The position numbers were made by a program, and so were the translations under genes. A stretch of DNA of 21,941 bases, from positions 1 through 21,941 of the IMG/VR virus record IMGVR_UViG_3300032285_001251. One strand, written 5' to 3'. The stretch's first letter is position 1, and each line of letters starts with the position of its first letter. Below are positions 6,093 to 21,941 of this stretch, piece after piece. The notes under the pieces are model-generated. The model made no database searches. It was not told where the DNA came from and saw only the letters and a list, made by a program, of their open reading frames with translations. Source of the DNA: a virus.

Positions 6093-6542
6093 ATGATAGA
6101 CTGGGATAGGGATGAGGATATCATCTTCCCCAAAGAAGATAATTTAGAATATGATTTGCGTAGCGCTGAGTGGATTGTAGAGAAAGCTAAAAGTGATAAG
6201 GCATATGCTCAACATTTATACGCAGCAATGTGTAACAATGAATTTCAACGAAATGAAGTATGGCCTATATTAAGTGGGAAAAAATGGAGTTGTAGTTGGA
6301 GACACGCAGGGGCAATTGTTAGTAATATACGTGAAGAAGGTGATTACATGGATTGGTACTGTAGTGGAATACAGAATGATGATCCAATTGATGAAGAAGT
6401 ATTTCAGAATATGGATGATCATCAAAGACAAGAGTTTTATGAAGTTAAAGCATATGTTAGTGAAAGTATAGTGACGGAAGAAATCCGTGAAGATTTGTTG
6501 AAATTAGGATGGATCATTTTAGAAGATAATTATACTGACTAA
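6093..6542 (+). CDS. conserved phage-type hypothetical protein
   Basis: This acidic 149-aa protein has a central W-rich motif (WSCSWRHAGAIVSNIR) and a short DYMDWYCSG segment. I do not recognise a catalytic family. Two starts are possible: ATG 6081 overlaps the hydrolase by 11 nt, and ATG 6093 lies one base after its stop with GGAA in front. I prefer 6093. Its stop is followed at 6538-6545 by a weak TATAAATA-like box and then iscU. Confidence 0.6.
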   Translation: MIDWDRDEDIIFPKEDNLEYDLRSAEWIVEKAKSDKAYAQHLYAAMCNNEFQRNEVWPILSGKKWSCSWRHAGAIVSNIREEGDYMDWYCSGIQNDDPIDEEVFQNMDDHQRQEFYEVKAYVSESIVTEEIREDLLKLGWIILEDNYTD

Positions 6543-6563
6543 ATACTGTACAGGAGATTATAT

Positions 6564-6938: not shown

Positions 6939-6939
6939 T

Positions 6940-7209
6940 ATGAGTACAGAAGCTGATAAACTTAAGCATAGCAGACGCTTGCTTAAGGATGATAATGCCA
7001 TCCATAAACAATTGAGAATTGCTAAACAACATGGTTCTGAATTTAATGACAGAATAATCAAAGAACCACACAGATTAGCAAAACATCATGCGTTAGATTG
7101 TGGTAATCCTAAATGTTTATTATGTCATCGTGAAAAAGTATTTGGTGAACGTACTATACAGGAAAGAAGATTTGATCAAACATCTAAATGGTTAGAAAGT
7201 GACGATTAA
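6940..7209 (+). CDS. small basic protein with zinc-knuckle-like Cys motif
   Basis: This 89-aa, charge-rich protein begins 1 nt after iscU. A C54-x4-C59-x2-C62-H63 cluster (DCGNPKCLLCHREK), preceded by His49-His50, looks like a small metal site. Similar short proteins with a CGNPKC motif are common in T4-type environmental phages. Function is unknown. Its AT-rich codon use resembles the phage background, unlike iscU. Confidence 0.6.
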   Translation: MSTEADKLKHSRRLLKDDNAIHKQLRIAKQHGSEFNDRIIKEPHRLAKHHALDCGNPKCLLCHREKVFGERTIQERRFDQTSKWLESDD

Positions 7210-7233
7210 AACTTTAAACTAGTGATTGTACTA

Positions 7234-7241
7234 GATAAATA
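7234..7241 (+). promoter_or_regulatory. T4-type late promoter box for ahpC
   Basis: GATAAATA matches the TATAAATA late box at 7 of 8 positions. It lies 25 nt before the ahpC ATG, leaving a normal leader that contains AAGGAG. Confidence 0.5.
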
Positions 7242-7266
7242 TTTCACTACACACAAGGAGATATTT

Positions 7267-7851
7267 ATGAAAACAATCGGAGACAAACTAACAAAATTTG
7301 GTGTTACTGGTATTAAACCCGGCGCACTAACCCCTGACAACAATTTTGAAACTATCACAGAAAGTAGTTTTGGTGGCAAATGGAAAGTAATTGTATTTTA
7401 TCCAAAAGACTTTACATTTGTGTGCCCAACTGAAATTGTTGCATATGACAAGCTAAACAAAAACTTTGCAGACCGTGACGCTGTGTTATTAATCGGTAGC
7501 ACAGATAACGAATTCTGTAAGCTAGCATGGAAGAATGCACACGAAGGCTTGAAAGCAACTACATCGTGGTTCTTTGCAGACACACTGCGCCGTCAAAAAC
7601 CTGTATTGGGTGAAGATTGGGAAATCTCAAACATCGGTGGATTAGCTGATCAATTAGGTATTTTCTATGCACCAGCAGGCGCAGCATTACGTGCAACATT
7701 CATTGTTGACCCACAAAATGTTATTCAGCATGTTACAGTAAATAACTTAGATGTTGGCCGTAATCCAGATGAAACATTGCGGGTATTGGATGCATTGCAA
7801 ACAGGTGAGTTATGTCCCTGCAATCGTACTATAGGTGGTGAGACACTATGA
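7267..7851 (+). CDS. ahpC: AhpC-type peroxiredoxin
   Basis: This 194-aa 2-Cys peroxiredoxin reduces hydrogen peroxide and organic peroxides. The peroxidatic Cys53 lies in YPKDFTFVCPTE. The C terminus has GELCPCN, with Cys183 and Cys185 as candidate resolving cysteines, as in the mycobacterial AhpC branch (which has CxC) that is recycled by AhpD rather than AhpF. A conserved Arg lies in LRATFIVDP. ATG 7267 is chosen because AAGGAG lies 6 nt upstream; an in-frame GTG-like start at 7222 has no ribosome site. The ATGA overlap with ahpD indicates a coupled pair. Confidence 0.92.
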   Translation: MKTIGDKLTKFGVTGIKPGALTPDNNFETITESSFGGKWKVIVFYPKDFTFVCPTEIVAYDKLNKNFADRDAVLLIGSTDNEFCKLAWKNAHEGLKATTSWFFADTLRRQKPVLGEDWEISNIGGLADQLGIFYAPAGAALRATFIVDPQNVIQHVTVNNLDVGRNPDETLRVLDALQTGELCPCNRTIGGETL

Positions 7852-8405
7852 ATCCAGAAAATCAACTACCACCAATCACAGTAAATGGTAACTGGGTTCA
7901 AACTGTATTAGACAGTATACCTGATCATGCTAAAGATATCAAATTAAATTTAGAAAACGTTATGAAGAATCACGGGCTAGAGCCGGTTGACGCTCATGCG
8001 TGTGCATATGCTGCTGCAATTGCGGCAAGTAACGGCGGATTAGCATTTGAAATTGAAATGAATAGTCCATTATTTCTTAATGATGCTGAACGTGAAGCAA
8101 CTAAAGCTGCGTCTGCACTTATGGGTATGAATAACATTTGGTATCCTTTTGTACAAATGGTCAATGATCCTGAATTAAAAGGGTTACCACCTGGATTACG
8201 AATGAATGTCTATGCCAATCACGGTGGAGTTTCAAAACAAAAATTTGAAATGTATGCATTGGCAGCAAGCATTGTGGGCAAGTGTGAGCATTGCGTAAAA
8301 AGTCATTATGATATATTGAAGGCAGGTGGGATGACCGTGCAACAATTGCAAGCTATAGGAAAAATTGCAGCCATAGTTAATGCCATAGGAAAAATAGCTA
8401 TTTAA
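7848..8405 (+). CDS. ahpD: AhpD-type alkylhydroperoxidase / AhpC reductant
   Basis: This 185-aa protein matches AhpD: HAKDIKLNLENV near residue 30, MGMNNIWYP, GLRMNVYAN, and the active site E134-x11-C146-E-H-C149-x3-H153, with the same Glu-to-Cys spacing as in mycobacterial AhpD. AhpD passes electrons from lipoylated proteins to oxidised AhpC and has weak peroxidase activity itself. It overlaps ahpC by ATGA. The extreme C terminus repeats IGKIA twice because ATAGGAAAAAT is duplicated (8356-8366, 8386-8396). Confidence 0.88.
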   Translation: MNPENQLPPITVNGNWVQTVLDSIPDHAKDIKLNLENVMKNHGLEPVDAHACAYAAAIAASNGGLAFEIEMNSPLFLNDAEREATKAASALMGMNNIWYPFVQMVNDPELKGLPPGLRMNVYANHGGVSKQKFEMYALAASIVGKCEHCVKSHYDILKAGGMTVQQLQAIGKIAAIVNAIGKIAI

Positions 8406-8411
8406 TAAATA
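8404..8411 (+). promoter_or_regulatory. T4-type late promoter box, 5 nt from ATG
   Basis: AATAAATA matches TATAAATA at 7 of 8 positions and overlaps the ahpD stop. The gap to ATG 8417 is CGTGT and no Shine-Dalgarno is present, so transcription would start at or next to the A of ATG. Confidence 0.55.
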
Positions 8412-8416
8412 CGTGT

Positions 8417-8905
8417 ATGATACGTACCCTTGATACTATAGATATTGAGCCAATATTAAATTCTTATCACGCATTAGAAGAAAATATTCAATGGCATGAA
8501 TCTGGAAAAAAGGGCCGGCAAGCCGCACTACAATATAAAATTGGTGATGATATTTGGTTTGGTGCGACTGGAGTTAACAGGGGACAAGAGTTAAAATACA
8601 CAGAAATTAACCCCTTTTTTAAAGATACTATTTTTGAAGAACTAATCAAAAAATATAACTTAAAAAGATCAAGGTTCATGTGGTTGGGTCCTATGTCTTG
8701 CTATAGTATGCATAGAGATTCAACCCCAAGGTTGCATATACCATTAATCACCAATCCGCAGTGTTTTTTTGTTTTTAAACAAGGCATAGTACAACATATG
8801 CCCGCTGGATTTGTGTATAAAGTTAATACAATGGAACAGCACACTGCTATGAATTGTTCAGATGACCTAAGATTACATTTTATTGGCGTGCTTGATAGAG
8901 ATTGA
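8417..8905 (+). CDS. aspartyl/asparaginyl beta-hydroxylase-like 2OG oxygenase
   Basis: This 162-aa protein has a C-terminal double-stranded beta-helix with H99-R-D101 and H142 as the Fe(II) triad and R152 as the 2-oxoglutarate-binding Arg. The order HRD, RLHIPL, EQHTAMN, LRLHFIG follows the Asp_Arg_Hydrox family pattern. It would hydroxylate an unknown peptide or small molecule. It is the first of three such proteins in the window and appears to open the enzyme cluster. It lacks a ribosome site and begins 5 nt after a late promoter box. Confidence 0.7.
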   Translation: MIRTLDTIDIEPILNSYHALEENIQWHESGKKGRQAALQYKIGDDIWFGATGVNRGQELKYTEINPFFKDTIFEELIKKYNLKRSRFMWLGPMSCYSMHRDSTPRLHIPLITNPQCFFVFKQGIVQHMPAGFVYKVNTMEQHTAMNCSDDLRLHFIGVLDRD

Positions 8906-8906
8906 T

Positions 8907-9692
8907 ATGATTAGTTCTGACAAAATCATAGGACCTGCTAAACCTATAATTACTGAAAATGTTAATATGGGTGATTATATTAAATTTAAAAATAAATTTA
9001 ATACTTGGATTCATTCCTCTGTGCAATCTGTAATTGGATTGCCTAAAAAATATTATATTGTGTCAGGACTAACTGATGCATTTAATCAAACATATGCATT
9101 GTATAATAAGATAGGAATATTTGAAGGAGAATATGGCTATCATAAATTAGCAATGAAAGATAGAGTTACTACAGATTTATCTCAAGCTGATATTATTATC
9201 ATTAGTCATCCATTCAGTGGTGACGGAATGAGTTCACACGATAAGATTAAGATAGCAGATACTTACAATAAACCAATCTTTATTGATTGTGCTTTTTTTG
9301 GTATATGTAGAAATATAAACTTTGACTTCACCCCCTATAAAAATATACACAGTGTGGGGTTTTCACTATCTAAAACATTTGGATCAGGTTTACATAGGGT
9401 TGGGTTATTGTATACAAGTGATTCTTACCCAGTTGAAGTATATGAAAAATCTATGTATCCTTTTGTAGCCGGCGCCGAACATCATTACGATTTACTTGAT
9501 AAAATGTCCCCCGACTCAATGGTAGAAAAATACGGTGAGATTCAAAAAACAATTTGTAAAGAATTAAATATAGTACCATCTGATACAATACTGTTTGGAT
9601 TGGATAACTCTATAGAATATTCAAGGTACAAACGCGGGGATACTAATAGGTTATGTATCAGTTATCTTATAGCTAGTTATAATAATGTTTGA
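8907..9692 (+). CDS. short PLP-dependent aminotransferase-like enzyme (fold type I)
   Basis: This 261-aa protein carries the central features of a fold-type I PLP enzyme: IFID127CAF (Asp to the pyridine nitrogen), GFS153LSK156TFG with the Schiff-base lysine, and R164 in GLHRVG (phosphate/PLP binding region). SGLTDAFNQTYAL (about 53-65) matches the cofactor phosphate loop. It is about 100 residues shorter than usual aminotransferases, mostly lacking a C-terminal domain. ATG 8907 follows the upstream stop by one base, and the last bases overlap the next gene by 8 nt. Confidence 0.7.
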   Translation: MISSDKIIGPAKPIITENVNMGDYIKFKNKFNTWIHSSVQSVIGLPKKYYIVSGLTDAFNQTYALYNKIGIFEGEYGYHKLAMKDRVTTDLSQADIIIISHPFSGDGMSSHDKIKIADTYNKPIFIDCAFFGICRNINFDFTPYKNIHSVGFSLSKTFGSGLHRVGLLYTSDSYPVEVYEKSMYPFVAGAEHHYDLLDKMSPDSMVEKYGEIQKTICKELNIVPSDTILFGLDNSIEYSRYKRGDTNRLCISYLIASYNNV

Positions 9693-10245
9693 AAAATATG
9701 TTCCTGAGTTAGGGTCTAGAGGATCATTAGGTGAAATTTGGATAGACAAAGAAGCCAAACTAGTTAAAAAAATATTTAAACCTAACGCAATTTCTATTAA
9801 AAATAGACCTACCTTTCATCGCAAGATAGAAGAAATTGCTAAACTCTACAACAATGAAATACATTGGACTACTAAACTAAAGTCTAAGTTTCTAGTAGAA
9901 ACATATGAATACGGGGAATTAAAGAATGAAGAAGGATTTTACCTGTTACAAGAATATGTAGGTCCTGATTTGTTAAACAATCAATTAAAACACGAACATA
10001 AATTAATAGCAGACCAGCTAGATGATATGTTTAAATTCTTTAAAGAAAATGAAGTATATAAAATTAATAACGCTAAATGTAATTTAACTATGAATAATGA
10101 TGGGCAACTTAAATGTTTTGATTTTAAATATGCAGTACCGCGGGATCCTAAAAAAACTATGTTAGAACTCTTATCTGTTAAAAGATGGCTATCTAATATA
10201 GATGAGTCAGTTTTGCCAAGATTATCCAAACATATATCATTCTAA
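9685..10245 (+). CDS. small protein-kinase-fold-like protein
   Basis: This 186-aa protein has kinase-like landmarks: VKKIFKPN with K28/K29, LLQE90YVGPDL resembling the hinge, NAKCN133LTMNNDG where the catalytic loop would be, and CFD146FKYA in place of DFG. The usual HRD catalytic Asp is not seen, so it may be a pseudokinase or an unusual small-molecule kinase. It is translationally coupled to the PLP gene and converges on the minus-strand gene, overlapping it by 9 nt. Confidence 0.5.
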   Translation: MFEKYVPELGSRGSLGEIWIDKEAKLVKKIFKPNAISIKNRPTFHRKIEEIAKLYNNEIHWTTKLKSKFLVETYEYGELKNEEGFYLLQEYVGPDLLNNQLKHEHKLIADQLDDMFKFFKENEVYKINNAKCNLTMNNDGQLKCFDFKYAVPRDPKKTMLELLSVKRWLSNIDESVLPRLSKHISF

Positions 10246-10980
10246 ATTATCAACAATTTCAGCATAATAAATATCTAATATCTCATTAACCCTTGTTACT
10301 TTTTCTGTGCGAAATTCTTTACCTAATTTACTAGACAACCATTCAATTATTTTTACTGAATCTTTGTTAGCAAGTAATGTACAGAAATCAAATCTTTCTA
10401 CACCCTCATTTTTTTTGTTGTTATAGATAGGCAATATGTTTTTCCAAAAATTGTTAGATTGTGGATAACAAATCTCACACCTTTCTTTTTGGAATTTTCT
10501 ACCAATGTCAGTATCAGCTACAACTGATATACATTTAATGTTGTATCCCAAATCTTGCATCTGTTTAAATGGTATAGATTTATGCCAAGTATGTATCCCG
10601 TATAGTATTCTATAGTCTTTCATTTGATATTTTTGATTCTCATAAAATCTAGTAGAAACTTTATCCGCCCAATTCCAGCGTTGAGTAGTTGACAATATGA
10701 ATGTACCTAAGAATTCAAAATATTGAATATAATCATTAATTTCTTTCGGATCACATTTATCTAGAAACCAATTAGTAATGCGTTTAGGAACTTCAATGGC
10801 ATAATCAATTTCTCTAGTAGATAAATGAGAATGTATAGTTAAGTCGGACAATATCTTTTCATTATCGTAATTTAATCTACTATCTAATTCAGACCAAAGT
10901 CTCATTAAAAGTTGTCCAGATGAACCTGGTAAAAAATCTACTAATAATAATTCGTTATCAGTTAAGAATGGATATTTCAT
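10237..10980 (-). CDS. unknown protein with P-loop/sulfotransferase-like N terminus
   Basis: This 247-aa protein starts with LLLVDFLPGSSGQLLMRLW (about 11-29), in which PGSSGQ follows a beta strand and precedes a helix, reminiscent of nucleotide- or PAPS-binding loops of sulfotransferases. A CEICYP motif lies around residue 170. No firm family call is possible. It is the longest of the window's few minus-strand genes and starts 4 nt after a perfect late promoter box without a Shine-Dalgarno. Its 3' end overlaps the convergent kinase-like gene. Confidence 0.55.
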   Translation of the reverse strand: MKYPFLTDNELLLVDFLPGSSGQLLMRLWSELDSRLNYDNEKILSDLTIHSHLSTREIDYAIEVPKRITNWFLDKCDPKEINDYIQYFEFLGTFILSTTQRWNWADKVSTRFYENQKYQMKDYRILYGIHTWHKSIPFKQMQDLGYNIKCISVVADTDIGRKFQKERCEICYPQSNNFWKNILPIYNNKKNEGVERFDFCTLLANKDSVKIIEWLSSKLGKEFRTEKVTRVNEILDIYYAEIVDNLE

Positions 10981-10984
10981 TAGA

Positions 10985-10992
10985 TATTTATA
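10985..10992 (-). promoter_or_regulatory. perfect T4-type late promoter box, 4 nt from ATG (minus strand)
   Basis: On the minus strand TATAAATA is followed by TCTA and then the ATG at 10980. No ribosome site is present. Confidence 0.65.
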
Positions 10993-11007
10993 GAGTCAAC
11001 AAATGTA

Positions 11008-11015
11008 CATAAATA
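11008..11015 (+). promoter_or_regulatory. T4-type late promoter box, 6 nt from ATG
   Basis: CATAAATA matches 7 of 8 positions of TATAAATA. AAACAA separates it from ATG 11022, and no Shine-Dalgarno is visible. Confidence 0.5.
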
Positions 11016-11021
11016 AAACAA

Positions 11022-11915
11022 ATGGCTATCATCTACGACAACTATATCTATGGTACAGGTAACGGACCTACTTGGCATGTAAAAATTCGTCCACCTAACA
11101 GACCTGTAAAAAGCTATTATGAGGAAACAGTAATTGCTGCTGAAATGTTATGGGAACAGAAGCGCGGCAAAATATATGTTTGCTTAAGCGGTGGTATGGA
11201 TAGTGAGTATGCATTAGCAGTATTAAATTCATTGGGTATGGACCCAATACCTGTGATATTGCGAACAAAGTACAATGCACATGATGTGTTGTATGCGTTT
11301 ACTTACTGTTTAGATCATAACTTAACTCCAGTGGTAATTGATTTAGATTTAGATAAATTTGTAGAGTCTGGTCAATTTTTAGAAATAGCAACTAGTACAA
11401 ACTGTGCAGCATATCAATATATAGCCACAATGTGGTTGACTAGTCAAATAGACGGGACAGTTATTACAGGTGAAACAGACCCTCATATGTATTTGCGTGA
11501 TGGCAAGTGGTATATAGATGAAATAGAGCCAGTGTTCAATCATTTAACTTATTATGAGATGCACGATATACACACCATGCCATACTTCATTAGACACACC
11601 CCTGAACAGTTTCTAGCATTCTTAACTGATCCAATCATGCAAAAACTAGCAAACAACCAGATACCGGGCAAGACGGGCTCATACTCAAGCAAGATACATG
11701 TTTACAACAACCAAGCTGTGTTTAAATTAGAACAACGCAAGAAACAAAATGGATATGAGTTCGTAGAAACTAGCCCAATATTCCAACATCCTGATATGCA
11801 ATTAGTAAAAAGTTGGAAAGATAAATTTTGGGGGTCAAGTGATTTTGAATATAATTATCTAGTCAATACACTAAGTTCAGGCCAAATAGCAGAGGGTACA
11901 AATGGACAAAATTGA
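11022..11915 (+). CDS. PP-loop ATPase (adenylating/ammonia-transfer-like enzyme)
   Basis: This 297-aa protein carries the PP-loop motif S56-G-G-M-D-S61 after the strand KIYVCL. This is the ATP-pyrophosphate-binding loop shared by asparagine synthetase, NAD synthetase, QueC and PAPS reductase families, which activate a carbonyl or sulfate by adenylation. A TGETDPH segment (about 149-155) may be a second nucleotide-contact region. I cannot name the substrate; QueC-type zinc cysteines are absent. It overlaps the next gene by 14 nt. A second PP-loop protein lies at 14445. Confidence 0.7.
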   Translation: MAIIYDNYIYGTGNGPTWHVKIRPPNRPVKSYYEETVIAAEMLWEQKRGKIYVCLSGGMDSEYALAVLNSLGMDPIPVILRTKYNAHDVLYAFTYCLDHNLTPVVIDLDLDKFVESGQFLEIATSTNCAAYQYIATMWLTSQIDGTVITGETDPHMYLRDGKWYIDEIEPVFNHLTYYEMHDIHTMPYFIRHTPEQFLAFLTDPIMQKLANNQIPGKTGSYSSKIHVYNNQAVFKLEQRKKQNGYEFVETSPIFQHPDMQLVKSWKDKFWGSSDFEYNYLVNTLSSGQIAEGTNGQN

Positions 11916-12456
11916 TATGCTATCTTTGACCGATGAAAACAAATACTTTTTTGTAAATGAGTTGAAGAAAGAATTGTGTGAGAGATTTAAAACATCAGTA
12001 GAAGAATTACCGGAGTTATATGGTTATGCTAAACCGTGGAGTTTACTTAATTTAGTAGAAAATGGTAGCATAGATTCTTATCACTTGTTATATGTTAATG
12101 ACAAAATTTGGACGGGCAGTGGCGGAATGATTAGAGAATTTTGCGGAGAAAAAGTATACCAATCAGGGTTCCGTGCATTTTCAGTGCAAGAACATCGTCA
12201 TACTGGATTGGGTGTAAATGCATATATGCACCAACATAGTTCTACACTTCATATTACTAGAGCCAAATTGCTTGAATGTACTAAAGTATTATGGTCTTTT
12301 GATCCGCATAACTATAGACTATTTCAAGTAAATCACAGATACTTAATTCCAAAAGCATTTCCAAACTATAAGTTTATAATACATGAGGAGTTAACTGAGT
12401 TCAATTATTCTCCTCAACACTTGATAATTCTAGACTTGATGGAAAATTCTGTATAA
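11902..12456 (+). CDS. GNAT-like acetyltransferase (tentative)
   Basis: This 184-aa protein has a central segment QSGFRAFSVQEHRHTGLGV (about 88-106). The strand, EHRHTGLG turn and following helix resemble the acetyl-CoA loop of GNATs, and the later FQVNHRYLIP resembles the family's C-terminal strand. The match is looser than in the 98-712 gene. The start could also be ATG 11917, which lies just after the upstream stop. A perfect late promoter box lies at its end, overlapping nothing essential. Confidence 0.4.
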   Translation: MDKIDMLSLTDENKYFFVNELKKELCERFKTSVEELPELYGYAKPWSLLNLVENGSIDSYHLLYVNDKIWTGSGGMIREFCGEKVYQSGFRAFSVQEHRHTGLGVNAYMHQHSSTLHITRAKLLECTKVLWSFDPHNYRLFQVNHRYLIPKAFPNYKFIIHEELTEFNYSPQHLIILDLMENSV

Positions 12457-12459
12457 ATA
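12452..12459 (+). promoter_or_regulatory. perfect T4-type late promoter box, 4 nt from ATG
   Basis: TATAAATA is followed by CAGA and ATG 12464. The box overlaps the stop codon of the upstream gene. There is no Shine-Dalgarno for the desaturase gene. Confidence 0.65.
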
Positions 12460-12463
12460 CAGA

Positions 12464-13165
12464 ATGACATACAAGCAAAAACTCCTAACCACTCAAGTAT
12501 ACATTCACATTCTGTTCATCGCGGGATTGATAATGTTCCCATGGTATATAACTATACCCACAATTATACTGAGTCAAGTTGTATATTCGGGTCTTTGCGG
12601 AACAGTATTATTTCATAGAGTAGCAACACACAAAAACGCTATTAACCCGATTGCTGAAAAGGTATTAATTTTACTATCTTGGTTGGGGGCAACCTCATCC
12701 GCCCTTGCTTGGGCAGGCGCGCATAGAAAACATCATAGATATAGCGATACTGATAAAGACCCGCATAGCCCTATTAAAATGGGTAAATTTAGAGCGTATT
12801 GGCAACTATCAAAAAACGACACTGATATAATTCGTTATGTTCCTGATTTGTTAAGAAAACCATGGTACTTGTTTCAACATAAACATTATTTTGTTGTATT
12901 GTATGTGATACATATATTGGGATTTGTTTTACTCCCGTTACAAGTATACTGGATGTTGTTAATTGTCCCAGGATTCTTAATGTGGTTTACTGGAAGCATG
13001 GTTAATTGTTTATGCCACAGTGATGCTGGTCCAATCAACAATGCTATATTGAGTGTGTTATTAGTGGGCGAAGGAATGCACCTTAATCACCATGAAGAAC
13101 CTGCTAACCCTGACTTCAGAGATGGAACTGATTGGGGATACAAACTCTATACCTTAGTAAAATGA
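12464..13165 (+). CDS. membrane fatty-acid desaturase
   Basis: This 233-aa integral membrane protein has the three histidine boxes of acyl desaturases: H51-RVAT-H56, H87-RK-H90-H91 and H206-LN-H209-H210, which bind the di-iron centre. Hydrophobic pairs at about 10-50 and 140-180 are likely membrane segments. It would introduce a double bond (delta-9-type fold) into host membrane lipids, perhaps adjusting fluidity during infection. Typical bacterial homologues are longer. Its stop overlaps the next start (ATGA), linking it to two oxygenase-like genes. Confidence 0.85.
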   Translation: MTYKQKLLTTQVYIHILFIAGLIMFPWYITIPTIILSQVVYSGLCGTVLFHRVATHKNAINPIAEKVLILLSWLGATSSALAWAGAHRKHHRYSDTDKDPHSPIKMGKFRAYWQLSKNDTDIIRYVPDLLRKPWYLFQHKHYFVVLYVIHILGFVLLPLQVYWMLLIVPGFLMWFTGSMVNCLCHSDAGPINNAILSVLLVGEGMHLNHHEEPANPDFRDGTDWGYKLYTLVK

Positions 13166-13875
13166 AACTAAAACATCGCCTTCCCAGTTATTCTATAATT
13201 GACCACTTATCATTGACTCAAACTCAACTAGAAAGTTTAGTACAATGTGTTAATGAGTTGGAATACGAATTCAAATCTGTATTAGAAGTTAACAAAGAGT
13301 TATGTGGGATACACCACGACCTTGCTAGCAAAGTGTATGAAAACTTCTTTCAAATAAGTTTGACTGACAGCACCGTAGAAAATAAACCAATCACACTAGA
13401 AGAATGTGAAATGGTTGATGAAACACTACATAGTAACAGCATAGTAAAAAATTATAGAAAACGTATTGAATTAACTACGAGTGAATCTAGTCCAATGAAT
13501 GAGTCTACTTATACAGCCAAAACTAAAGTTTATGATAAGTACGCAGAAATTTTTGACAGTATCTTTTCAAAAATCAAAGGTGTATCTACCCGCGCACGAT
13601 TAGTTAAGTTAGGTTCTGGTAGCAATGTCACCCCACACATAGACTATGATCCTAGTTATGCGGTGCGTATAATCATACCTATCATTGCTGATAATGAATG
13701 TCTTAATGTATTCTGGGTCAAGAACAATATAGAAACTGTTGCATTTACTCCCGGTAAAGCATACTTTTTAAATACTGGATACAAACATGCAGTTATGAAT
13801 TTTAGTAAGCATGATAGATATACATTGCTTATATCTGTTAACGGTACACAAGACATAGACCATCTACTAGTTTAA
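13162..13875 (+). CDS. 2OG-Fe(II) oxygenase-like protein (second of three)
   Basis: This 237-aa protein has a helical N-terminal half and a C-terminal double-stranded beta-helix with H159-I-D161, H209 (GYKHAVMN) and R219 (DRYTLLISV). The spacing and N-x-S pattern resemble aspartyl beta-hydroxylase-type oxygenases. ATG 13162 is chosen because it overlaps the desaturase stop as ATGA; the alternative TTG upstream is within the desaturase. The substrate is unknown. Confidence 0.65.
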   Translation: MKLKHRLPSYSIIDHLSLTQTQLESLVQCVNELEYEFKSVLEVNKELCGIHHDLASKVYENFFQISLTDSTVENKPITLEECEMVDETLHSNSIVKNYRKRIELTTSESSPMNESTYTAKTKVYDKYAEIFDSIFSKIKGVSTRARLVKLGSGSNVTPHIDYDPSYAVRIIIPIIADNECLNVFWVKNNIETVAFTPGKAYFLNTGYKHAVMNFSKHDRYTLLISVNGTQDIDHLLV

Positions 13876-13876
13876 A

Positions 13877-14455
13877 ATGCCATTTGTTTATAAAAACGTA
13901 GTCATTAACAAAATAAATGTAATGACTTATGAATTGAGGAAGTTTGCATTACCTTATGCAGAAAATAAACCTACGGGACTATGGGCATTAGATTTAGAAG
14001 AATTTAAAAATACTTGCCCACATTGTGTTTGGTATTTTGAACACATTGGTCAATTAGACAATCTATACAAAGCCTGCATTGTAGTTGTACATCCAAAAAC
14101 TACAGGTAAAGACGCACATGTTGATAATAACATAGAGCCGCCGGCAGAAGGTGGCAACACAAAGGGCTGCATTAGTCTTAACTTTGATATTGAAAACGGT
14201 AAAAATACGAGTGTTATTTTTTACAAATATTTGAGTGGAGACAAAAAGATAGTGCCATTACATGACCCTACACAGGGGTCCTATATATATTATAGTGGTT
14301 GTGAGATGGAAGAAATAGGAAGATATTCACTTAGTACACCTGCTATGATGAACAATACTGTTCCTCACGCTATATTGAATGACACAGAAGAAACACGCAT
14401 AACACTTAGCTTTAGGTTTGTAGTTGACCCGTGGGATTTTGCTAATGGACTATAA
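13877..14455 (+). CDS. 2OG-oxygenase/cupin-like protein (third of three)
   Basis: This 192-aa protein has H81-V-D83, H164 (NNTVPHAILN) and R174 (TRITLSFRF), the order expected for an Fe(II)/2-oxoglutarate double-stranded beta-helix. The intervening CISLNFDIENG strand fits the fold. It starts 1 nt after the previous oxygenase-like gene and its end overlaps the second PP-loop gene by 11 nt. The N-terminal part shows no known motif. Confidence 0.6.
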   Translation: MPFVYKNVVINKINVMTYELRKFALPYAENKPTGLWALDLEEFKNTCPHCVWYFEHIGQLDNLYKACIVVVHPKTTGKDAHVDNNIEPPAEGGNTKGCISLNFDIENGKNTSVIFYKYLSGDKKIVPLHDPTQGSYIYYSGCEMEEIGRYSLSTPAMMNNTVPHAILNDTEETRITLSFRFVVDPWDFANGL

Positions 14456-15587
14456 GTACGGATATTGGGAAGCAAATGGTTCTAAGTTTAAGAATAAACT
14501 ACAGGCCATGTTTCATGCAACTGAACATAATACTGAGGTATATTACAAATACCACAATGATGTATGGGCTAACTTTGATAAAACAACGTTAGGAAAAGTC
14601 TCATTAGACTCATTATACAAAGAACGGGCGCAGCAATTAAGAGATACTTATGATTACTTAATCATATACTATTCGGGCGGTTCCGATAGCCATAACATAT
14701 TGCGTACATTCATTGACAATGATATTAAAATTGATGAGATATGTGTCAAGTGGCCTAAACCATTGATTGATGGTAAACTATATGATCCAGACGTAACAAA
14801 CACAGAAGCTACAAACTATTGGAGTGAATGGAATTATTCAGTCAAGCCCACATTAGATTGGGTAGCAAGAAATAAGCCAGAAATACTTATCACAGTTAAA
14901 GACTTTATGGAAGATAGTGACAAGATTAGTATGGAATCGTTGTTCACTTATGCTGCCGAAATGCGTTCTGGTTCAATGAATCTCAATAGATTATTGACCG
15001 GTGTAGTATCAGACAATGATTTGATATTGAGTGACAAAGGAGTTACTGTAGGACATGTATACGGGATAGACAAACCTTTACTTACATATAATGAAGAAAC
15101 AAAACTGTTGAGTATGTTTTTTACAGACTTTGCAGTATCATGTGTTTGTCCAGGACAAGACCCCAATAGTGCTGAATGCTTTTATTGGACTCCAAATATG
15201 CCTCAAATACCATTTGAAATGGCATACGCTATGGGTGATTACTTTATTGCATTTCCGCAACATAAACATTTTTTATTTCGTAGCAACGGTAAGCATTTAG
15301 TGCCCGCGGGTGATATAGCAGACTTTCAGCATAAACTAGCAAGAAAGATGTGTTATACTAATTGGGACAACAGATTTCAAACAGAAAAAGCAAGACGTAA
15401 CGATAAGAACGACAAGTATTACTTTTTGTTTAATGATACAGAATTTGAGAACATTAAGAAAGACTATTTAGGTGGAATGAAATCGTTTACTGAAAAGTTA
15501 AACAGTAGTTTCCTTACTGACCCTGACGATTACTATGCTGGTACTAGAGTAATGAGTACCAGGTCATTTCCAGTTAGAACTCTTTAA
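14445..15587 (+). CDS. PP-loop ATPase (second of two)
   Basis: This 380-aa protein has the PP-loop S77-G-G-S-D-S82 after the strand YLIIYY. SGGSDS followed by a helix is the ATP pyrophosphatase signature. A cysteine pair (SCVCPG, near residues 231-233) could have a redox or metal role. It is longer than the 11022 protein and only loosely similar by eye, so the two are not simple duplicates. The ATG at 14445 overlaps the previous gene; an upstream ATG at 14424 would add seven residues. Its stop shares TTAA with the convergent minus-strand gene. Confidence 0.7.
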   Translation: MDYKYGYWEANGSKFKNKLQAMFHATEHNTEVYYKYHNDVWANFDKTTLGKVSLDSLYKERAQQLRDTYDYLIIYYSGGSDSHNILRTFIDNDIKIDEICVKWPKPLIDGKLYDPDVTNTEATNYWSEWNYSVKPTLDWVARNKPEILITVKDFMEDSDKISMESLFTYAAEMRSGSMNLNRLLTGVVSDNDLILSDKGVTVGHVYGIDKPLLTYNEETKLLSMFFTDFAVSCVCPGQDPNSAECFYWTPNMPQIPFEMAYAMGDYFIAFPQHKHFLFRSNGKHLVPAGDIADFQHKLARKMCYTNWDNRFQTEKARRNDKNDKYYFLFNDTEFENIKKDYLGGMKSFTEKLNSSFLTDPDDYYAGTRVMSTRSFPVRTL

Positions 15588-15889
15588 GTATCTAATTCTT
15601 CTCTATATGCTGTGATGTTGTTGTCGGACTCATACAAATCACGCTCATTCCAAACATCAAAGCAGGTTAAGTCTTCACAAAATTCAATCCAGTCTAAGAA
15701 ACTATTCCATACTGAGTGTCTAGTTTCAGTCAATCCATCTTCTGAATATGATATATCAAACGATATTCGTTTTCCTGTATCTATGAAATTTGTTTTAACA
15801 TATTCTTCAAACGCATCTGTCCATTTGTAAAAACCCACTTCAGTTGACGGCCTGATAGTGATTCTGTTATATTCGTATTTGTCTGACAT
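15584..15889 (-). CDS. small acidic protein, function unknown
   Basis: This 101-aa minus-strand protein begins MSDKYEYNRITI and is acidic and aromatic-rich, with no recognised motif. ATG 15889 is chosen because AGGAG lies 7 nt upstream; an earlier in-frame ATG at 15922 would overlap the late promoter box. Its TAA and the TAA of the convergent PP-loop gene are read from the same TTAA (15584-15587). Confidence 0.6.
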   Translation of the reverse strand: MSDKYEYNRITIRPSTEVGFYKWTDAFEEYVKTNFIDTGKRISFDISYSEDGLTETRHSVWNSFLDWIEFCEDLTCFDVWNERDLYESDNNITAYREELDT

Positions 15890-15906
15890 AGTTTGCTCCT
15901 GTAAAC

Positions 15907-15914
15907 TATTTATA
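15907..15914 (-). promoter_or_regulatory. perfect T4-type late promoter box with normal leader (minus strand)
   Basis: TATAAATA on the minus strand lies 17 nt before ATG 15889, with AGGAG in the leader. This gives a leadered contrast to the boxes that lie 4-6 nt from their ATG. Confidence 0.6.
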
Positions 15915-15956
15915 GACAACAAAAAGTGAGTATTTATATTTTGGGTAAATTAGTTG

Positions 15957-15985
15957 TTGACTTCTAATCAAAACTACTATATAAT
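15957..15985 (+). promoter_or_regulatory. sigma-70-type promoter
   Basis: TTGACT (15957-15962) and TATAAT (15980-15985) are separated by exactly 17 nt. Transcription should start near 15992 and run toward the terminator at 16217-16255. Confidence 0.75.
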
Positions 15986-16053
15986 ACACACATAAACAGC
16001 AAAAAACACTATGTTATTTGCAGTTATTTTAAACCAGGACTAAATAAAAGACT

Positions 16054-16188
16054 ATGATGAATAAAACTTGTTACATGCCGAAACATACGGGGCTATGGTC
16101 TATAGAGGCCTTAGCGACCTTTGCGGCATCATATCCTACAAGTATTCGCGGCAATGATAACCAAAGAGGTGCCCGGGGAACGGATTAA
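16054..16188 (+). CDS. possible 44-aa ORF, or structured RNA on the same transcript
   Basis: An ORF beginning MMNKTCYMPKHTGLW and ending GARGTD lies between a sigma-70 promoter and a strong terminator. A weak late-type box, ACTAAATA, lies 7 nt upstream, and there is no well-placed ribosome site. The DNA is GC-rich for this genome and can pair extensively, for example ATGCCG (16075-16080) with CGGCAT (16124-16129), so it may instead be a small non-coding RNA. The two readings are not exclusive. Confidence 0.35.
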   Translation: MMNKTCYMPKHTGLWSIEALATFAASYPTSIRGNDNQRGARGTD

Positions 16189-16216
16189 TAAGTTACATCA
16201 TAACAAATTTATTCAA

Positions 16217-16255
16217 CCCCTGGGATACGAAAGTACTCAGGGGTTTTTGTTTTTG
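16217..16255 (+). terminator. intrinsic terminator
   Basis: CCCCTG (16217-16222) pairs with CAGGGG (16238-16243). An inner TAC/GTA pair and a GAAA loop are followed by a T-rich tract (TTTTTGTTTTT). This ends the first RNA unit before the next promoter at 16283. Confidence 0.85.
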
Positions 16256-16282
16256 TGTTGTATAAAAACAACATAACAGAGT

Positions 16283-16311
16283 TTGACAGTAAATGGATAC
16301 TCTGTTATAGT
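16283..16311 (+). promoter_or_regulatory. sigma-70-type promoter of the main tRNA operon
   Basis: TTGACA (16283-16288), a 17-nt spacer and TATAGT (16306-16311). It is the only strong promoter seen before the first tRNA and should drive the structured RNA at 16318 and the tRNA array behind it. Confidence 0.85.
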
Positions 16312-16317
16312 ATGGGT

Positions 16318-16520
16318 TAGTTAAGAAGATAGTGTGTTATAGGAAACGAGATCCTAGTCTGCACTTTAAACATGGACGAATGGGCGGCCTAGAGGATGAA
16401 GTCTCTTTTGTGAGATGAAAAATTCTAGCGTATTAAAGCATTCTCTAGCCGAAAGGTGACAAGTGGGTACGCACCCATGTAGTGTGCTTTAATACACGCA
16501 TTAGAAATAGTGCGTTAATA
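16318..16520 (+). ncRNA. structured leader RNA of the tRNA operon (novel candidate)
   Basis: About 200 nt without a convincing ORF lie between the promoter and the first tRNA. Clear helices are TAGGA/TCCTA near 16340-16356, CTAGA/TCTAG with inner TCTC/GAGA, a 10-bp stem TATTAAAGCA (16432-16441)/TGCTTTAATA (16485-16494) enclosing TGGGT/ACCCA and a CC-GAAA-GG hairpin, and ACGCATTA-GAAA-TAGTGCGT (16496-16515). Two GAAA tetraloops and compensating wobble pairs argue for a folded RNA. T4 carries unexplained stable RNAs (species 1 and 2) in its tRNA cluster, and this may be an analogue. No known family is recognised. Confidence 0.6.
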
Positions 16521-16526
16521 ATTTAT

Positions 16527-16600
16527 TGGGGCATTGTGTAATGGTAGCACAACAGACTTTGACTCTGTTAGCCTAGGTTCAATCCCTAGTGCCCCTGCCA
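16527..16600 (+). tRNA. tRNA-Gln (anticodon TTG)
   Basis: Cloverleaf with acceptor GGGGCA/TGCCCC and an unpaired U1-U72, like the weak first pair of bacterial tRNA-Gln. The anticodon loop is CTTTGAC, the T arm CTAGG-TTCAATC-CCTAG, discriminator G, and CCA is encoded. Confidence 0.92.
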
Positions 16601-16605
16601 GTTTT

Positions 16606-16661
16606 AGGATACTTTCAGCAAAATTAAAAACTTTTCGTATGGTGAAAAAAAAGCGTATCCT
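16606..16661 (+). ncRNA. hairpin element between tRNA-Gln and tRNA-Arg
   Basis: AGGATAC (16606-16612) pairs perfectly with GTATCCT (16655-16661) around an A-rich 42-nt interior. It fills almost the whole 71-nt gap between two tRNA genes. It may guide RNase processing or be a small stable RNA. Confidence 0.45.
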
Positions 16662-16671
16662 GTTTTATTAT

Positions 16672-16748
16672 GCGACCGTAACTCAGTTGGATAGAGTACT
16701 AGGCTACGAACTTAGGAGTCGGGAGTTCGAATCTCTCCGGTCGCACCA
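16672..16748 (+). tRNA. tRNA-Arg (anticodon ACG)
   Basis: Acceptor GCGACCG/CGGTCGC, D arm CTCAGTTGGATAGAG, anticodon loop CTACGAA, T arm with TTCGAAT, discriminator A, encoded CCA. A34 is likely inosine after host TadA editing. Confidence 0.93.
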
Positions 16749-16752
16749 ATTT

Positions 16753-16826
16753 GCTCTTTTAGTATAAAGGTATTATAATACATTGGTAATGTATAGACAC
16801 TGGATCGTTACCAGTAAGGAGCACCA
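16753..16826 (+). tRNA. tRNA-Thr (anticodon GGT)
   Basis: Acceptor GCTCTTT/AAGGAGC, anticodon stem ATACA/TGTAT with loop TTGGTAA, T arm ACTGG-ATCGTTA-CCAGT, encoded CCA. The D stem is weak. Its CCA bases also form the start of the outer stem of the next structured RNA. Confidence 0.88.
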
Positions 16827-16928
16827 TATAAAAACACATTCTGAAACCTGTAGAGTCGTACAGCGGAATGCATAGTCAGGGTATGAGCTGGTATCTGGGA
16901 GATACGACCTGAATGTGTTTCTATATGG
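16824..16928 (+). ncRNA. structured RNA cassette 1 between tRNA-Thr and tRNA-Met
   Basis: An outer stem pairs 16824-16830 with 16922-16928 (7 bp) and 16832-16841 with 16911-16920 (10 bp) around one A-C mismatch. The 69-nt core holds CTGTA/TACAG and GTATC/GATAC hairpins. Its outer stem is nearly identical to that of the next element, while the core differs completely. No known family is recognised. Confidence 0.6.
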
Positions 16929-16933
16929 TAATT

Positions 16934-17010
16934 ATATAAAAACACATTGTCCTAGGCTGTGACCTAGTCCATCAGAAGTCCTTAGAGACAGAAGCAATGT
17001 GTTTCTATAT
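16934..17010 (+). ncRNA. structured RNA cassette 2, twin of cassette 1
   Basis: ATATA (16934-16938) pairs with 17006-17010, and AAACACATTG (16940-16949) pairs with 16995-17004, with the same A-C mismatch as in cassette 1. The 45-nt core contains the hairpin CTAGG-CTGTGA-CCTAG. The stem ends exactly at the first base of tRNA-Met, suggesting that processing of the tRNA and of this RNA are linked. Confidence 0.6.
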
Positions 17011-17086
17011 GGTAATATAGCATAGTGGCTAATGCAACTGCTTCATACGCAGTCTATCGTTGGTTCGAGTCCAACTATTACCACCA
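17011..17086 (+). tRNA. tRNA-Met (anticodon CAT)
   Basis: Acceptor GGTAATA/TATTACC, anticodon ACTGC-TTCATAC-GCAGT, T arm GTTGG-TTCGAGT-CCAAC, encoded CCA. The paired 1-72 end argues for an elongator (or lysidine-modified Ile2) rather than an initiator tRNA. Confidence 0.92.
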
Positions 17087-17087
17087 A

Positions 17088-17249
17088 TTAAAGATTATTG
17101 ATAAAGCGTAATGCTTTGTTGATATTAGTAAAATATTGTATCTGATACTCACAAAAGTATCTGTCATACACAATCATACAACAAACACCATCAATCAATG
17201 ATAGGTGAAAGTTTAAGCCTCCAGGAGTAACATTCTTGTAGGTTTTCAT
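17088..17249 (-). CDS. 53-aa small protein inside the tRNA array (minus strand)
   Basis: A minus-strand ORF begins MKTYKNVTPGGLNFHLSLID and ends ALRFINNL. It exactly fills the 176-nt gap between tRNA-Met and tRNA-Ile and opposes them. The box AATAAATA lies 5 nt before its ATG with no Shine-Dalgarno, the same arrangement as four larger genes and the 18259 gene here. That makes a real late gene plausible despite its size. It has two adjacent Cys (GVCCMIVYDRYFCEYQ) and no known motif. Confidence 0.5.
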   Translation of the reverse strand: MKTYKNVTPGGLNFHLSLIDGVCCMIVYDRYFCEYQIQYFTNINKALRFINNL

Positions 17250-17254
17250 AATAG

Positions 17255-17262
17255 TATTTATT
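17255..17262 (-). promoter_or_regulatory. T4-type late promoter box, 5 nt from ATG (minus strand)
   Basis: AATAAATA on the minus strand, matching 7 of 8 positions, abuts the first base of tRNA-Ile on the other strand and precedes ATG 17249 by CTATT. Confidence 0.45.
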
Positions 17263-17337
17263 GCCCAGTAGACCGAATGGTGAGGTACCGTCTTGATAAG
17301 GCGGCTGTAGTTGGATCGTAACCAACACTGGGTACCA
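17263..17337 (+). tRNA. tRNA-Ile (anticodon GAT)
   Basis: Acceptor GCCCAGT/ACTGGGT, anticodon CCGTC-TTGATAA-GGCGG, T arm GTTGG-ATCGTAA-CCAAC, encoded CCA. Confidence 0.92.
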
Positions 17338-17346
17338 ATTTTTTAT

Positions 17347-17420
17347 GGGCTGCTAGTATAATGGGATTACCCTAGCCTTGCACGTTAGTTATCGGGGTTC
17401 GATTCCCCGGCGGTCCACCA
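17347..17420 (+). tRNA. tRNA-Ala (anticodon TGC)
   Basis: Acceptor GGGCTGC/GCGGTCC with two G-U pairs, anticodon CTAGC-CTTGCAC-GTTAG, T arm CGGGG-TTCGATT-CCCCG, encoded CCA. Confidence 0.93.
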
Positions 17421-17426
17421 AGTTTA

Positions 17427-17485
17427 TAGGGAGTCACGCAGATGTCCTGCGTTACTTAAACGACCAAGCTGAGCCGGCGTCCCTA
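17427..17485 (+). ncRNA. 59-nt structured RNA between tRNA-Ala and tRNA-Pro
   Basis: TAGGGA (17427-17432) pairs with TCCCTA (17480-17485) like a short acceptor stem, enclosing the perfect hairpin ACGCAG-ATGTC-CTGCGT and a GC-rich segment (CGACCAAGCTGAGCCGGCG). It is too short for a tRNA and has no CCA. Confidence 0.5.
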
Positions 17486-17497
17486 AGAAAGTTTTAT

Positions 17498-17576
17498 CTG
17501 TGTGTGAGAAAGTCTGGTTTAATCTACTCGCCTTGGAAGTGAGAAATCGCAGGTTCAAATCCTGCCGCACAGACCA
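17498..17576 (+). tRNA. tRNA-Pro (anticodon TGG)
   Basis: Acceptor CTGTGTG/CGCACAG (C1-G72, typical of bacterial Pro), anticodon CTCGC-CTTGGAA-GTGAG, T arm GCAGG-TTCAAAT-CCTGC, encoded CCA. The D loop is long and its stem short. Confidence 0.9.
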
Positions 17577-17582
17577 GTTACT

Positions 17583-17677
17583 GGGGAATACGCTTCAAGG
17601 TGAAGCACCTGTATTCTGTATTAGAATATGTACTGCAAAATCAAACTTGATTGGTTCGATTCCAATATTCCCCGCCA
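17583..17677 (+). tRNA. tRNA-like gene with aberrant anticodon region
   Basis: Acceptor GGGGAAT/ATTCCCC, D arm GCTT-CAAGGTG-AAGC, T arm ATTGG-TTCGATT-CCAAT, discriminator G and encoded CCA are all good. The region between D and T arms is 43 nt and does not give a standard anticodon arm. The best stem, TATTC/GAATA, encloses TGTATTA, which lacks U33 (reading TAT). A shifted arm gives loop CTGTATT (GTA, Tyr) but a mismatched stem. It may be a type II tRNA, an interrupted tRNA or a tRNA-derived RNA. Confidence 0.6.
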
Positions 17678-17683
17678 AATTAT

Positions 17684-17760
17684 GGTGACCATAGTGTAAA
17701 GGTTTAGCACCTCACTCTGTGAAAGTGATAGAATGGGATCGTTCCCCATTGGTTACCCCA
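17684..17760 (+). tRNA. tRNA-His (anticodon GTG)
   Basis: G-1 opposite C73 (the His identity pair), acceptor GTGACCA/TGGTTAC, anticodon TCACT-CTGTGAA-AGTGA, T arm ATGGG-ATCGTTC-CCCAT, encoded CCA. Confidence 0.93.
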
Positions 17761-17765
17761 AACAT

Positions 17766-17842
17766 GCCCTGGTGGTGAAATTGGTAAACACAGCGGTCTA
17801 AGAAGCCGTAAGCTGCGAGTTCGAGTCTCGCCCAGGGCACCA
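17766..17842 (+). tRNA. tRNA-Leu (anticodon AAG) with short variable loop
   Basis: Acceptor GCCCTGG/CCAGGGC and a Leu-like D arm (GGTGAAATTGGTAAACAC). The anticodon loop CTAAGAA reads AAG, with stem GCGGT/GCCGT. T arm GCGAG-TTCGAGT-CTCGC, encoded CCA. The variable region is only about 5 nt, whereas bacterial Leu tRNAs have a long arm. The isotype is assigned from the anticodon. Confidence 0.75.
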
Positions 17843-17853
17843 AACAAATTTAC

Positions 17854-17932
17854 GCCCCGCTGGACAAAGGTGGTAAAGTCGCTTCTCTCAAAAGGAAGAG
17901 TGTTCTCGGTTCAAATCCGAGGCGGGGTACCA
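17854..17932 (+). tRNA. tRNA-Leu (anticodon CAA) with short variable loop
   Basis: Acceptor GCCCCGC/GCGGGGT, anticodon CTTCT-CTCAAAA-GGAAG, T arm CTCGG-TTCAAAT-CCGAG, encoded CCA. As in the previous tRNA-Leu, the long variable arm is missing (about 6 nt). Confidence 0.82.
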
Positions 17933-17938
17933 AGTTAC

Positions 17939-17989
17939 GGTCGGCATTGTAGAGTGCTATGCGATACAGGCTCTATGGGTTGACCACCA
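17939..17989 (+). ncRNA. 51-nt mini-tRNA-like RNA ending in ACCA
   Basis: GGTCGGC (17939-17945) pairs over 7 bp with GTTGACC (17979-17985), followed by A and CCA exactly as in a tRNA acceptor end. Inside is a single hairpin, TGTAGAG/CTCTATG, with a 16-nt loop. D and T arms are absent. It could be a remnant of a tRNA or a functional tRNA mimic. Confidence 0.5.
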
Positions 17990-17991
17990 AA

Positions 17992-18137
17992 TTTCAAGCT
18001 AGACGATAAGATTGAGTCCCAAATAATCTAGCACAGTTCGGGTTGGCTGTGTGACACCGCACACGATTATAAGGTAGTATAAACTCTCTTATACGAGACA
18101 ACCCAATGAGTCCGAAAGGATAGTTGGACGCTTGAAA
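17992..18137 (+). ncRNA. 146-nt pseudoknotted structured RNA before tRNA-Phe
   Basis: The closing stem is TTTCAAGC (17992-17999)/GCTTGAAA (18130-18137). Inside are CACAG/CTGTG (18032-18036/18047-18051), GTATAA/TTATAC (18077-18082/18089-18094) and TCC-GAAA-GGA (18111-18120). The loop of the CACAG hairpin contains GGGTTG (18040-18045), complementary to CAACCC (18099-18104), giving a pseudoknot. No known family is recognised. Confidence 0.6.
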
Positions 18138-18145
18138 ACCTATTT

Positions 18146-18222
18146 GCCATAGTAGCTCCAATCGGTAGAGCAGCGGACTGAAAATTCGTGTGTTGCTGGT
18201 TCAAATCCAGCCTATGGCACCA
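18146..18222 (+). tRNA. tRNA-Phe (anticodon GAA)
   Basis: Acceptor GCCATAG/CTATGGC, D stem GCTC/GAGC, anticodon GCGGA-CTGAAAA-TTCGT, T arm GCTGG-TTCAAAT-CCAGC, encoded CCA. Confidence 0.95.
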
Positions 18223-18245
18223 AATATTACTGTAACATTTCAGCA

Positions 18246-18253
18246 TATAAATA
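18246..18253 (+). promoter_or_regulatory. perfect T4-type late promoter box, 5 nt from ATG
   Basis: TATAAATA is followed by TATGT and ATG 18259. There is no ribosome site upstream of the SGNH gene. Confidence 0.65.
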
Positions 18254-18258
18254 TATGT

Positions 18259-18948
18259 ATGAAAAAGATTATAGCGTGTGGATGCAGTTGGACATATGGT
18301 GCTGAATGGAATATGCTAACTGACGAAATAGACAAGTTTGATGACTATGTTACTATATTAGGTAACAAGTTAGGTTGTGAAACAATCAACTTGTCAAAGC
18401 CTGGTTCAAGTAATTATGTTATTGCAAAACAAATTGAACATGCAATAACACTTAACCCAGATTTAATAGTATTCAATGTTACTACTCCTGAACGCATTGA
18501 TGTAATGCAAACAAATAAAAAACTTACAGGTAAAGTAACTATTAATAATTTTGATTATTCGTTATATCCAAATAAACATATAGGTGAAACTACTGATGAA
18601 ATAGATAGTGGCCCTCATCTACGCACGTTTATGCGGGCACAAGCCGGCGAAAAAGAATTTCAAGGAGTAGCTGATTTTTTATTAAAATATCATAGCTACT
18701 ATATAAAAGAAGACCAAGATAGATTATTAGTATTAGGAACAATTAGACTTTTAGAAAAAAGTAAAATTCCATTTGTATGTGTGAATTTCTCACCAATGTT
18801 TCAGAACAATGAATTGCCCAATTCTTTTACTATATCCTGGCAAAAGATGTGCGAATCATATCCTTTAGTTAAAGACCAATATCATTTTTCAATTAAGGGA
18901 CATGAATATTTGGCTGATAGGATATATGAAAACTTTACTTTTGGTTGA
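18259..18948 (+). CDS. SGNH/GDSL-type hydrolase
   Basis: This 229-aa protein has all four SGNH blocks in a recognisable form: S10 in ACGCSWTYG, G49 in KPGSSN, N73 in VFNVTT, and D206-Q-Y-H209 near the C terminus (the catalytic Asp-His pair) followed by SIKGHEYLADRI. It probably hydrolyses an ester or removes acetyl groups from a glycan. ATG 18259 is chosen because the upstream in-frame start lies inside tRNA-Phe and the late box precedes 18259. Its stop TGA forms part of the next promoter's -35 box. Confidence 0.75.
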   Translation: MKKIIACGCSWTYGAEWNMLTDEIDKFDDYVTILGNKLGCETINLSKPGSSNYVIAKQIEHAITLNPDLIVFNVTTPERIDVMQTNKKLTGKVTINNFDYSLYPNKHIGETTDEIDSGPHLRTFMRAQAGEKEFQGVADFLLKYHSYYIKEDQDRLLVLGTIRLLEKSKIPFVCVNFSPMFQNNELPNSFTISWQKMCESYPLVKDQYHFSIKGHEYLADRIYENFTFG

Positions 18949-21915: not shown

Positions 21916-21941
21916 GCTCGGTTCGTCTATCGGTCAGGACG
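21916..21941 (+). tRNA. 5' end of a tRNA, probably tRNA-Glu (cut by window edge)
   Basis: GCTCGGT fits an acceptor strand, followed by TC and the D arm GTC-TATCGGTCAG-GAC, which is the pattern of bacterial tRNA-Glu. The anticodon lies beyond the window, so the isotype is inferred. It directly follows the large RNA. Confidence 0.55.

Follow-up and report, generated by a model that had tools for sequence, protein, structure and literature searches.

The 21,941-nucleotide stretch of viral DNA considered here, a 21.9-kb fragment filed as IMG/VR record IMGVR_UViG_3300032285_001251 and hereafter called the window, contains boxes like those of phage T4 late promoters, and their placement suggests that they are very probably T4-type late promoters of a second, leaderless kind, whose transcripts would start at or near the AUG of the gene. 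This class is prominent in the jumbo-phage group to which the window belongs and in the SAR11 phages; cyanophages rarely have it, and T4 lacks it. In the window, six boxes of the form NATAAATA stand 5, 4, 6, 4, 5 and 5 nt from an ATG (Table 1). A sequence-only reading of the window had listed these six boxes and had stated that their genes lack a Shine-Dalgarno (SD) sequence; all positions and spacings were found again, and the absence of SD was confirmed. Among the 13 NATAAATA boxes of the window, six lie 4-7 nt before an open reading frame (ORF) opened by ATG, none at 8-16 nt and two at 17-25 nt. The same reading had assigned the genes starting at 7267 and 15889 a box 17-25 nt away together with AGGAG, and this is also the case, at 25 nt (AAGGAG) and 17 nt (AGGAG), respectively.

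Searches of INPHARED by megablast with the window and by tblastn with its unknown proteins gave no matches. The IscU protein of the window, used as a query, led to 80 further loci, including contigs of 147-374 kb, and in a first scan of 82 loci the histogram of spacings was already bimodal. The pooled sample consists of 15 related contigs and the window, about 1.8 Mb with 384 NATAAATA boxes; the contigs G001 (260 kb), G003 (252 kb), G004 (300 kb) and G005 (374 kb) were scanned nearly whole and the others partly. Counted starts are ATG codons that begin ORFs of 50 codons or more, and the pooled counts include homologues. Among the proteins encoded in G001-G005 are a late sigma factor of the gp55 type (phrog_234, E ~1e-22 to 1e-24) and gp23, the major capsid protein of T4 (phrog_138, E ~1e-100), and therefore these contigs are T4-like and have a late-transcription sigma factor. 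A gp55-type protein is also present in the cultured SAR11 phage HTVC008M, in which gp33 and gp45 are annotated, and in others.

In the pooled sample, 96 of the 384 boxes (25%) sit 4-7 nt ahead of an ATG-ORF, with a mode at 5 nt (23 at 4 nt, 52 at 5, 15 at 6 and six at 7), followed by three at 8 nt and a single one in the whole interval of 9-13 nt. Ten boxes lie at 14-16 nt, and a second peak, accompanied by SD sequences, begins at 17 nt (22 at 17 and 16 at 18 nt) and runs into a long tail. Permutations of TATAAATA without TAAATA served as the null and placed 2.0% of their sites at 4-7 nt, so that 96 boxes are to be compared with 7.5 expected (Poisson ~1e-69). The bimodal pattern is seen in each of the large contigs G001, G003, G004 and G005 separately. 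The two-peaked arrangement that the sequence-only reading had noticed was thus recovered in the pooled relatives, and the scan of box-to-ATG distances which it had proposed as a check gave, in many relatives, the peak at 4-6 nt without a ribosome site and the nearly empty gap behind it. The start codons at 4-7 nt are ATG in 96 cases, GTG in three and TTG in three, and in the pooled contigs GTG and TTG starts have no peak at this distance.

The boxes are conserved together with their spacings. A syntenic 36.6-kb contig (L001, the same record as G012), whose proteins are about 80% identical to those of the window, retains five of the six boxes at 77-100% protein identity; their loss from close relatives had been named as the observation that would speak against the class. 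The sixth, before the gene starting at 10980, is missing in L001; there the stop codon of the same-strand gene immediately upstream overlaps the start codon, so this orthologue needs no promoter of its own. Before the gene starting at 11022, the relative has the box TATAAATA and a changed spacer (AAACAA versus CTGCAA) of unchanged length, 6 nt. The 53-aa gene antisense to the tRNA array is 100% identical in G012 and has homologues in G001 and G011, at 41-57% identity among them, and all of these keep the box at 5 nt. A distant desaturase homologue in G011 (32% identity) has its box at 5 nt, compared with 4 nt in the window.

Orthologue families were built by BLAST, and 77 of the 137 families contain a leaderless-class member, 63 of them leaderless only and 14 with both classes; many of the latter align across classes from residue 1. 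For example, a 160-aa family is leaderless in G004, G005 and G006 and leadered in G001 and G015, with the alignment beginning at residue 1, and iscU, which is SD-led in the window, has a leaderless-class box at 4 nt in three other loci (L034, L035 and L060). Products encoded behind leaderless-class boxes include, by PHROG matches, portal (1e-90), baseplate wedge, tail tube and structural proteins. In HTVC008M, ten of 45 boxes lie at 4-7 nt, nine of them at exactly 5, and a de novo search for positional 6-mers gave TAAATA at a gap of 5 as the top result. Among the products of the genes concerned, 12 with spacings of 5-8 nt, are gp2, the tape measure, a tail-tube-associated baseplate protein, neck proteins and a base plate wedge of the gp25 type.

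The late box of T4 has its first T at -13 (PMC2988020); the sixth base past the box is therefore +1, so that with 5 nt between box and start codon the A of the AUG is +1. Of the 87 leadered genes with an SD 4-mer between box and ATG, 84 have the beginning of the first such 4-mer 5 nt or more past the box, and these positions may be taken as an independent estimate of the same transcription start. The nearly empty interval of 9-13 nt would correspond approximately to leaders of 4-8 nt, which leave no room for an SD but already exceed what leaderless initiation allows. SD 4-mers precede only two of 111 leaderless-class genes, as compared with 89 of 134 leadered ones, 11% of internal ATGs and 40% of the first ATGs in ORFs of at least 150 aa. 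In addition, the first 40 nt are least structured in the leaderless class (folding values of -2.1, against -3.0 in the leadered class and -4.3 at internal ATGs).

From these observations and by analogy with T4, the boxes are presumed to be active as promoters, with +1 six nt past the box, and their transcripts to be translated without a leader. A gp55-type late sigma factor with the host RNA polymerase would read the boxes as T4-type late promoters in two settings. Where 17-28 nt separate box and ATG, the RNA would start at or just before the SD and carry a minimal leader, about 12-23 nt long; where the distance is 4-7 nt, the 5' end of the RNA would fall on the AUG or 1-2 bases off, and such transcripts would be initiated through recognition of the AUG at the 5' end. 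A likely advantage is that such a late signal is complete within 13 nt and can share bases with a preceding stop codon or a diverging promoter. In the window, the box at 8404 overlaps the stop codon of the ahpD-like gene upstream, and the TAA within the box at 12452 is the stop codon of the preceding gene. Twelve diverging ORF pairs have a leaderless-class box on both sides, with 26-47 nt between their ATGs; the pair in the window (10980/11022) is separated by 41 nt and the shortest, gp2/gp4 of HTVC008M, by 26 nt (5 + 8 + 8 + 5), with the boxes back to back. In the shortest pairs there is no room for an SD next to two boxes.

The best surviving alternative, although improbable, is that the close boxes serve translation, as A/U-rich, SD-independent ribosome sites recognized through protein S1 on transcripts begun further upstream. 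The box indeed occupies the usual location of the SD, and 29 of the 111 leaderless-class boxes overlap a same-strand stop codon upstream, so that read-through transcripts exist. However, the identical 8-mer also occurs at 17-28 nt together with an SD, beyond the reach of the ribosome, A/T 8-mers in permuted order are not placed in this way, and these phages encode gp55. Furthermore, 28 of the 111 have a divergent gene start nearby, which leaves little upstream transcript, and divergent pairs 26-31 nt apart accommodate two boxes. Still less probable is that the promoters are real but the ATG is misassigned, the true start lying downstream behind an SD and a normal leader. Within 40 codons, six of 111 leaderless-class genes (about 5%) do have an in-frame start preceded by an SD, but leadered genes have such starts at least as often (11 of 134), the alignments of many orthologues begin at residue 1, also those between leaderless and SD-led ones, the box spacing is fixed relative to the ATG at single-base precision, and the depositors of HTVC008M chose identical ATGs, all 12 cases at 5-8 nt agreeing with the deposited start codons. 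Chance or the base composition of A/T-rich intergenic DNA is a practically negligible explanation: the window by itself contains no more TATAAATA-like matches (one mismatch) than chance would give, 79 against 83 expected, and the signal therefore resides in position, not in number, but the excess over permuted boxes in the pooled counts, the single-base mode, the near-empty gap and the conservation contradict it, and the class is absent from A/T-rich T4 and from KVP40.

Several points weigh against leaderless late promoters. Under strict T4 geometry, a spacing of 4 nt places the start on the U of AUG, which calls for some flexibility of the start site or for a geometry slightly unlike that of T4. 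Spacings of 6-8 nt imply leaders of 1-3 nt, and leaderless initiation disfavours 5' extensions. The scarcity of SD sequences is partly forced, because the box fills the SD position, and the downstream SD-preceded starts mentioned above count here as well. Some counts are false, since ORFs beginning MWEQ... (spacing 7) align within a longer protein. Finally, no gp55 gene of its own was seen in the window fragment.

Table 1. Predicted late boxes of the window and the genes associated with them.
Feature	Position	Strand	Remarks
Variant box ACTAAATA, leadered	6538..6545	+	18 nt to ATG 6564 (iscU); AGGAG 6552-6556
Late box GATAAATA, leadered class	7234..7241	+	25 nt to ATG 7267 (peroxiredoxin gene); AAGGAG 7255-7260; box and SD also in L001
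Late box AATAAATA, leaderless class	8404..8411	+	5 nt to ATG 8417; same box and spacing in L001/G012
Asp/Arg beta-hydroxylase-like gene (PF05118), 162 aa	8417..8905	+	G012 orthologue 77% identical, N-terminus aligned from residue 1
Gene behind box 10985, 247 aa, no function assigned	10237..10980	-	
Divergent promoter region, 41 nt	10981..11021	.	two leaderless-class late boxes, one per diverging gene
Late box TATAAATA	10985..10992	-	4 nt to ATG 10980
Late box CATAAATA	11008..11015	+	6 nt to ATG 11022
Gene behind box 11008, 297 aa	11022..11915	+	G012 orthologue 80% identical from residue 1; no Pfam or PHROG match of the product
Late box TATAAATA	12452..12459	+	4 nt to ATG 12464; identical in L001
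Fatty-acid desaturase-like gene (PF00487), 233 aa	12464..13165	+	
Late box TATAAATA, leadered class	15907..15914	-	17 nt to ATG 15889; AGGAG 15900-15896; also in L001
Gene antisense to tRNA array, 53 aa	17088..17249	-	
Late box AATAAATA, within tRNA array	17255..17262	-	5 nt to ATG 17249
Late box TATAAATA	18246..18253	+	5 nt to ATG 18259; same in G012
Gene behind box 18246, 229 aa, no function assigned	18259..18948	+	

A second box before the gene starting at 15889 (15931, minus strand) is not conserved in L001. Several further features of the window may be mentioned. Positions 6564-8405 hold a row of host-like metabolic genes, encoding IscU, a peroxiredoxin and an AhpD-like protein of the CMD family. 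Around the tRNA array, long non-coding stretches (16321-16500 and 21480-21930) have the look of structured RNA, and no Rfam match above the gathering score was obtained for them. Within the array, two adjoining units TATAAAAACACATT...AATGTGTTTCTATATGGTAAT at 16828-17010 appear to be either a repeated element with hairpin borders or degenerate genes resembling those of tRNAs. Two tRNA-like regions that are not called by ARAGORN (17577-17680 and 17418-17500) are possibly degenerate or unusual tRNAs, and a match to the tRNA-Sec model at 17582-17674 scores 25.7 bits, below the cut-off.

The ribosomal protein bS21 (PF01165) was found in HTVC008M, Mosig, Melnitz, G003, G004, G005, G008 and G009, all of which have leaderless-class genes, and was not found in T4, KVP40, Syn9, S-PM2, P-SSM2, phiM12 or C48C1, with at most one such case each; the phages were compared without control for phylogeny. 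A tentative and rather doubtful proposal is that phage bS21, made late, shifts initiation to the leaderless phage mRNAs, the class being coupled to an altered ribosome. Of the phages for which a prior prediction had been made, namely that those with bS21 have the class and the others do not, Mosig fits and Melnitz fits weakly, and P-SSM4 is a weak miss. Against such a link, G001 has many leaderless-class genes and no bS21 was found in it, Melnitz has only three, and P-SSM4 has three without bS21. The link is only suggestive, and bS21 as a necessary partner, a candidate weakened by P-SSM4 and G001, remains a lead and not a finding.

If the leaderless class is real, whole sets of virion genes in jumbo and SAR11 phages would be translated via a different initiation route, and this may help to explain why bS21 is encoded by many of them. 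It would also provide gene callers with a precise rule for start codons, the box plus 5 nt, and the cultured phages HTVC008M and Mosig allow direct testing. No earlier report of leaderless T4-like late genes was found in the open-access literature searched, subscription papers being outside the search, and the arrangement in SAR11 and jumbo phages appears to be so far undescribed. Prediction of late promoters in pelagimyophages was reported to be unsuccessful (PMC7029224), for which the position of the boxes so near the ATG may be a reason.

T4 late transcription is the textbook system of leadered, SD-led mRNAs. The phages described here resemble T4, whose late promoters depend on gp55, gp33 and gp45 and on TATAAATA, in the box, in the gp55-type sigma factor of the relatives, in the late structural genes and in the SD-bearing leadered class. 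Unlike here, where about one quarter of the boxes are 4-7 nt from an ATG, no T4 box lies within 11 nt of an ATG-ORF. The T4-type leaderless class put forward in the sequence-only reading is supported in the relatives of the window, but it is no general property of T4 late promoters: at 4-7 nt there are none of the 65 boxes of T4, and likewise none of 35 in KVP40, 38 in Syn9 and 24 in phiM12, and one each of 59 in S-PM2, 66 in P-SSM2 and 34 in C48C1. The late box of cyanophages (Kyanoviridae) is a degenerate NATAAATA, as it is here (PMC2984593), but cases at 4-7 nt, systematic in the present group, are rare in them (0-1 in Syn9, S-PM2 and P-SSM2, and three, a weak signal, in P-SSM4). In P-SSM4 (AY940168), TATAAATA at 107316 stands exactly 5 nt before the annotated plastoquinol terminal oxidase, possibly an isolated leaderless case among cyanophages. 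Closest are the cultured Pelagibacter phages HTVC008M and Mosig, which share the architecture and the peak at exactly 5 nt (six cases in Mosig; Melnitz has three cases, a weak signal), although their genomes are much smaller. According to the AR9 paper, phage transcripts are often leaderless, yet the leaders of AR9 itself are at least 26 nt long. A different kind of precedent exists in leaderless phage mRNAs such as that of lambda cI, which has a 5'-terminal AUG and no SD. The transcripts predicted here would be alike in being translated from a 5'-terminal AUG without an SD, but those known cases are single genes, whereas the present boxes would define a whole class of late genes by its promoters, under the control of a phage sigma factor.

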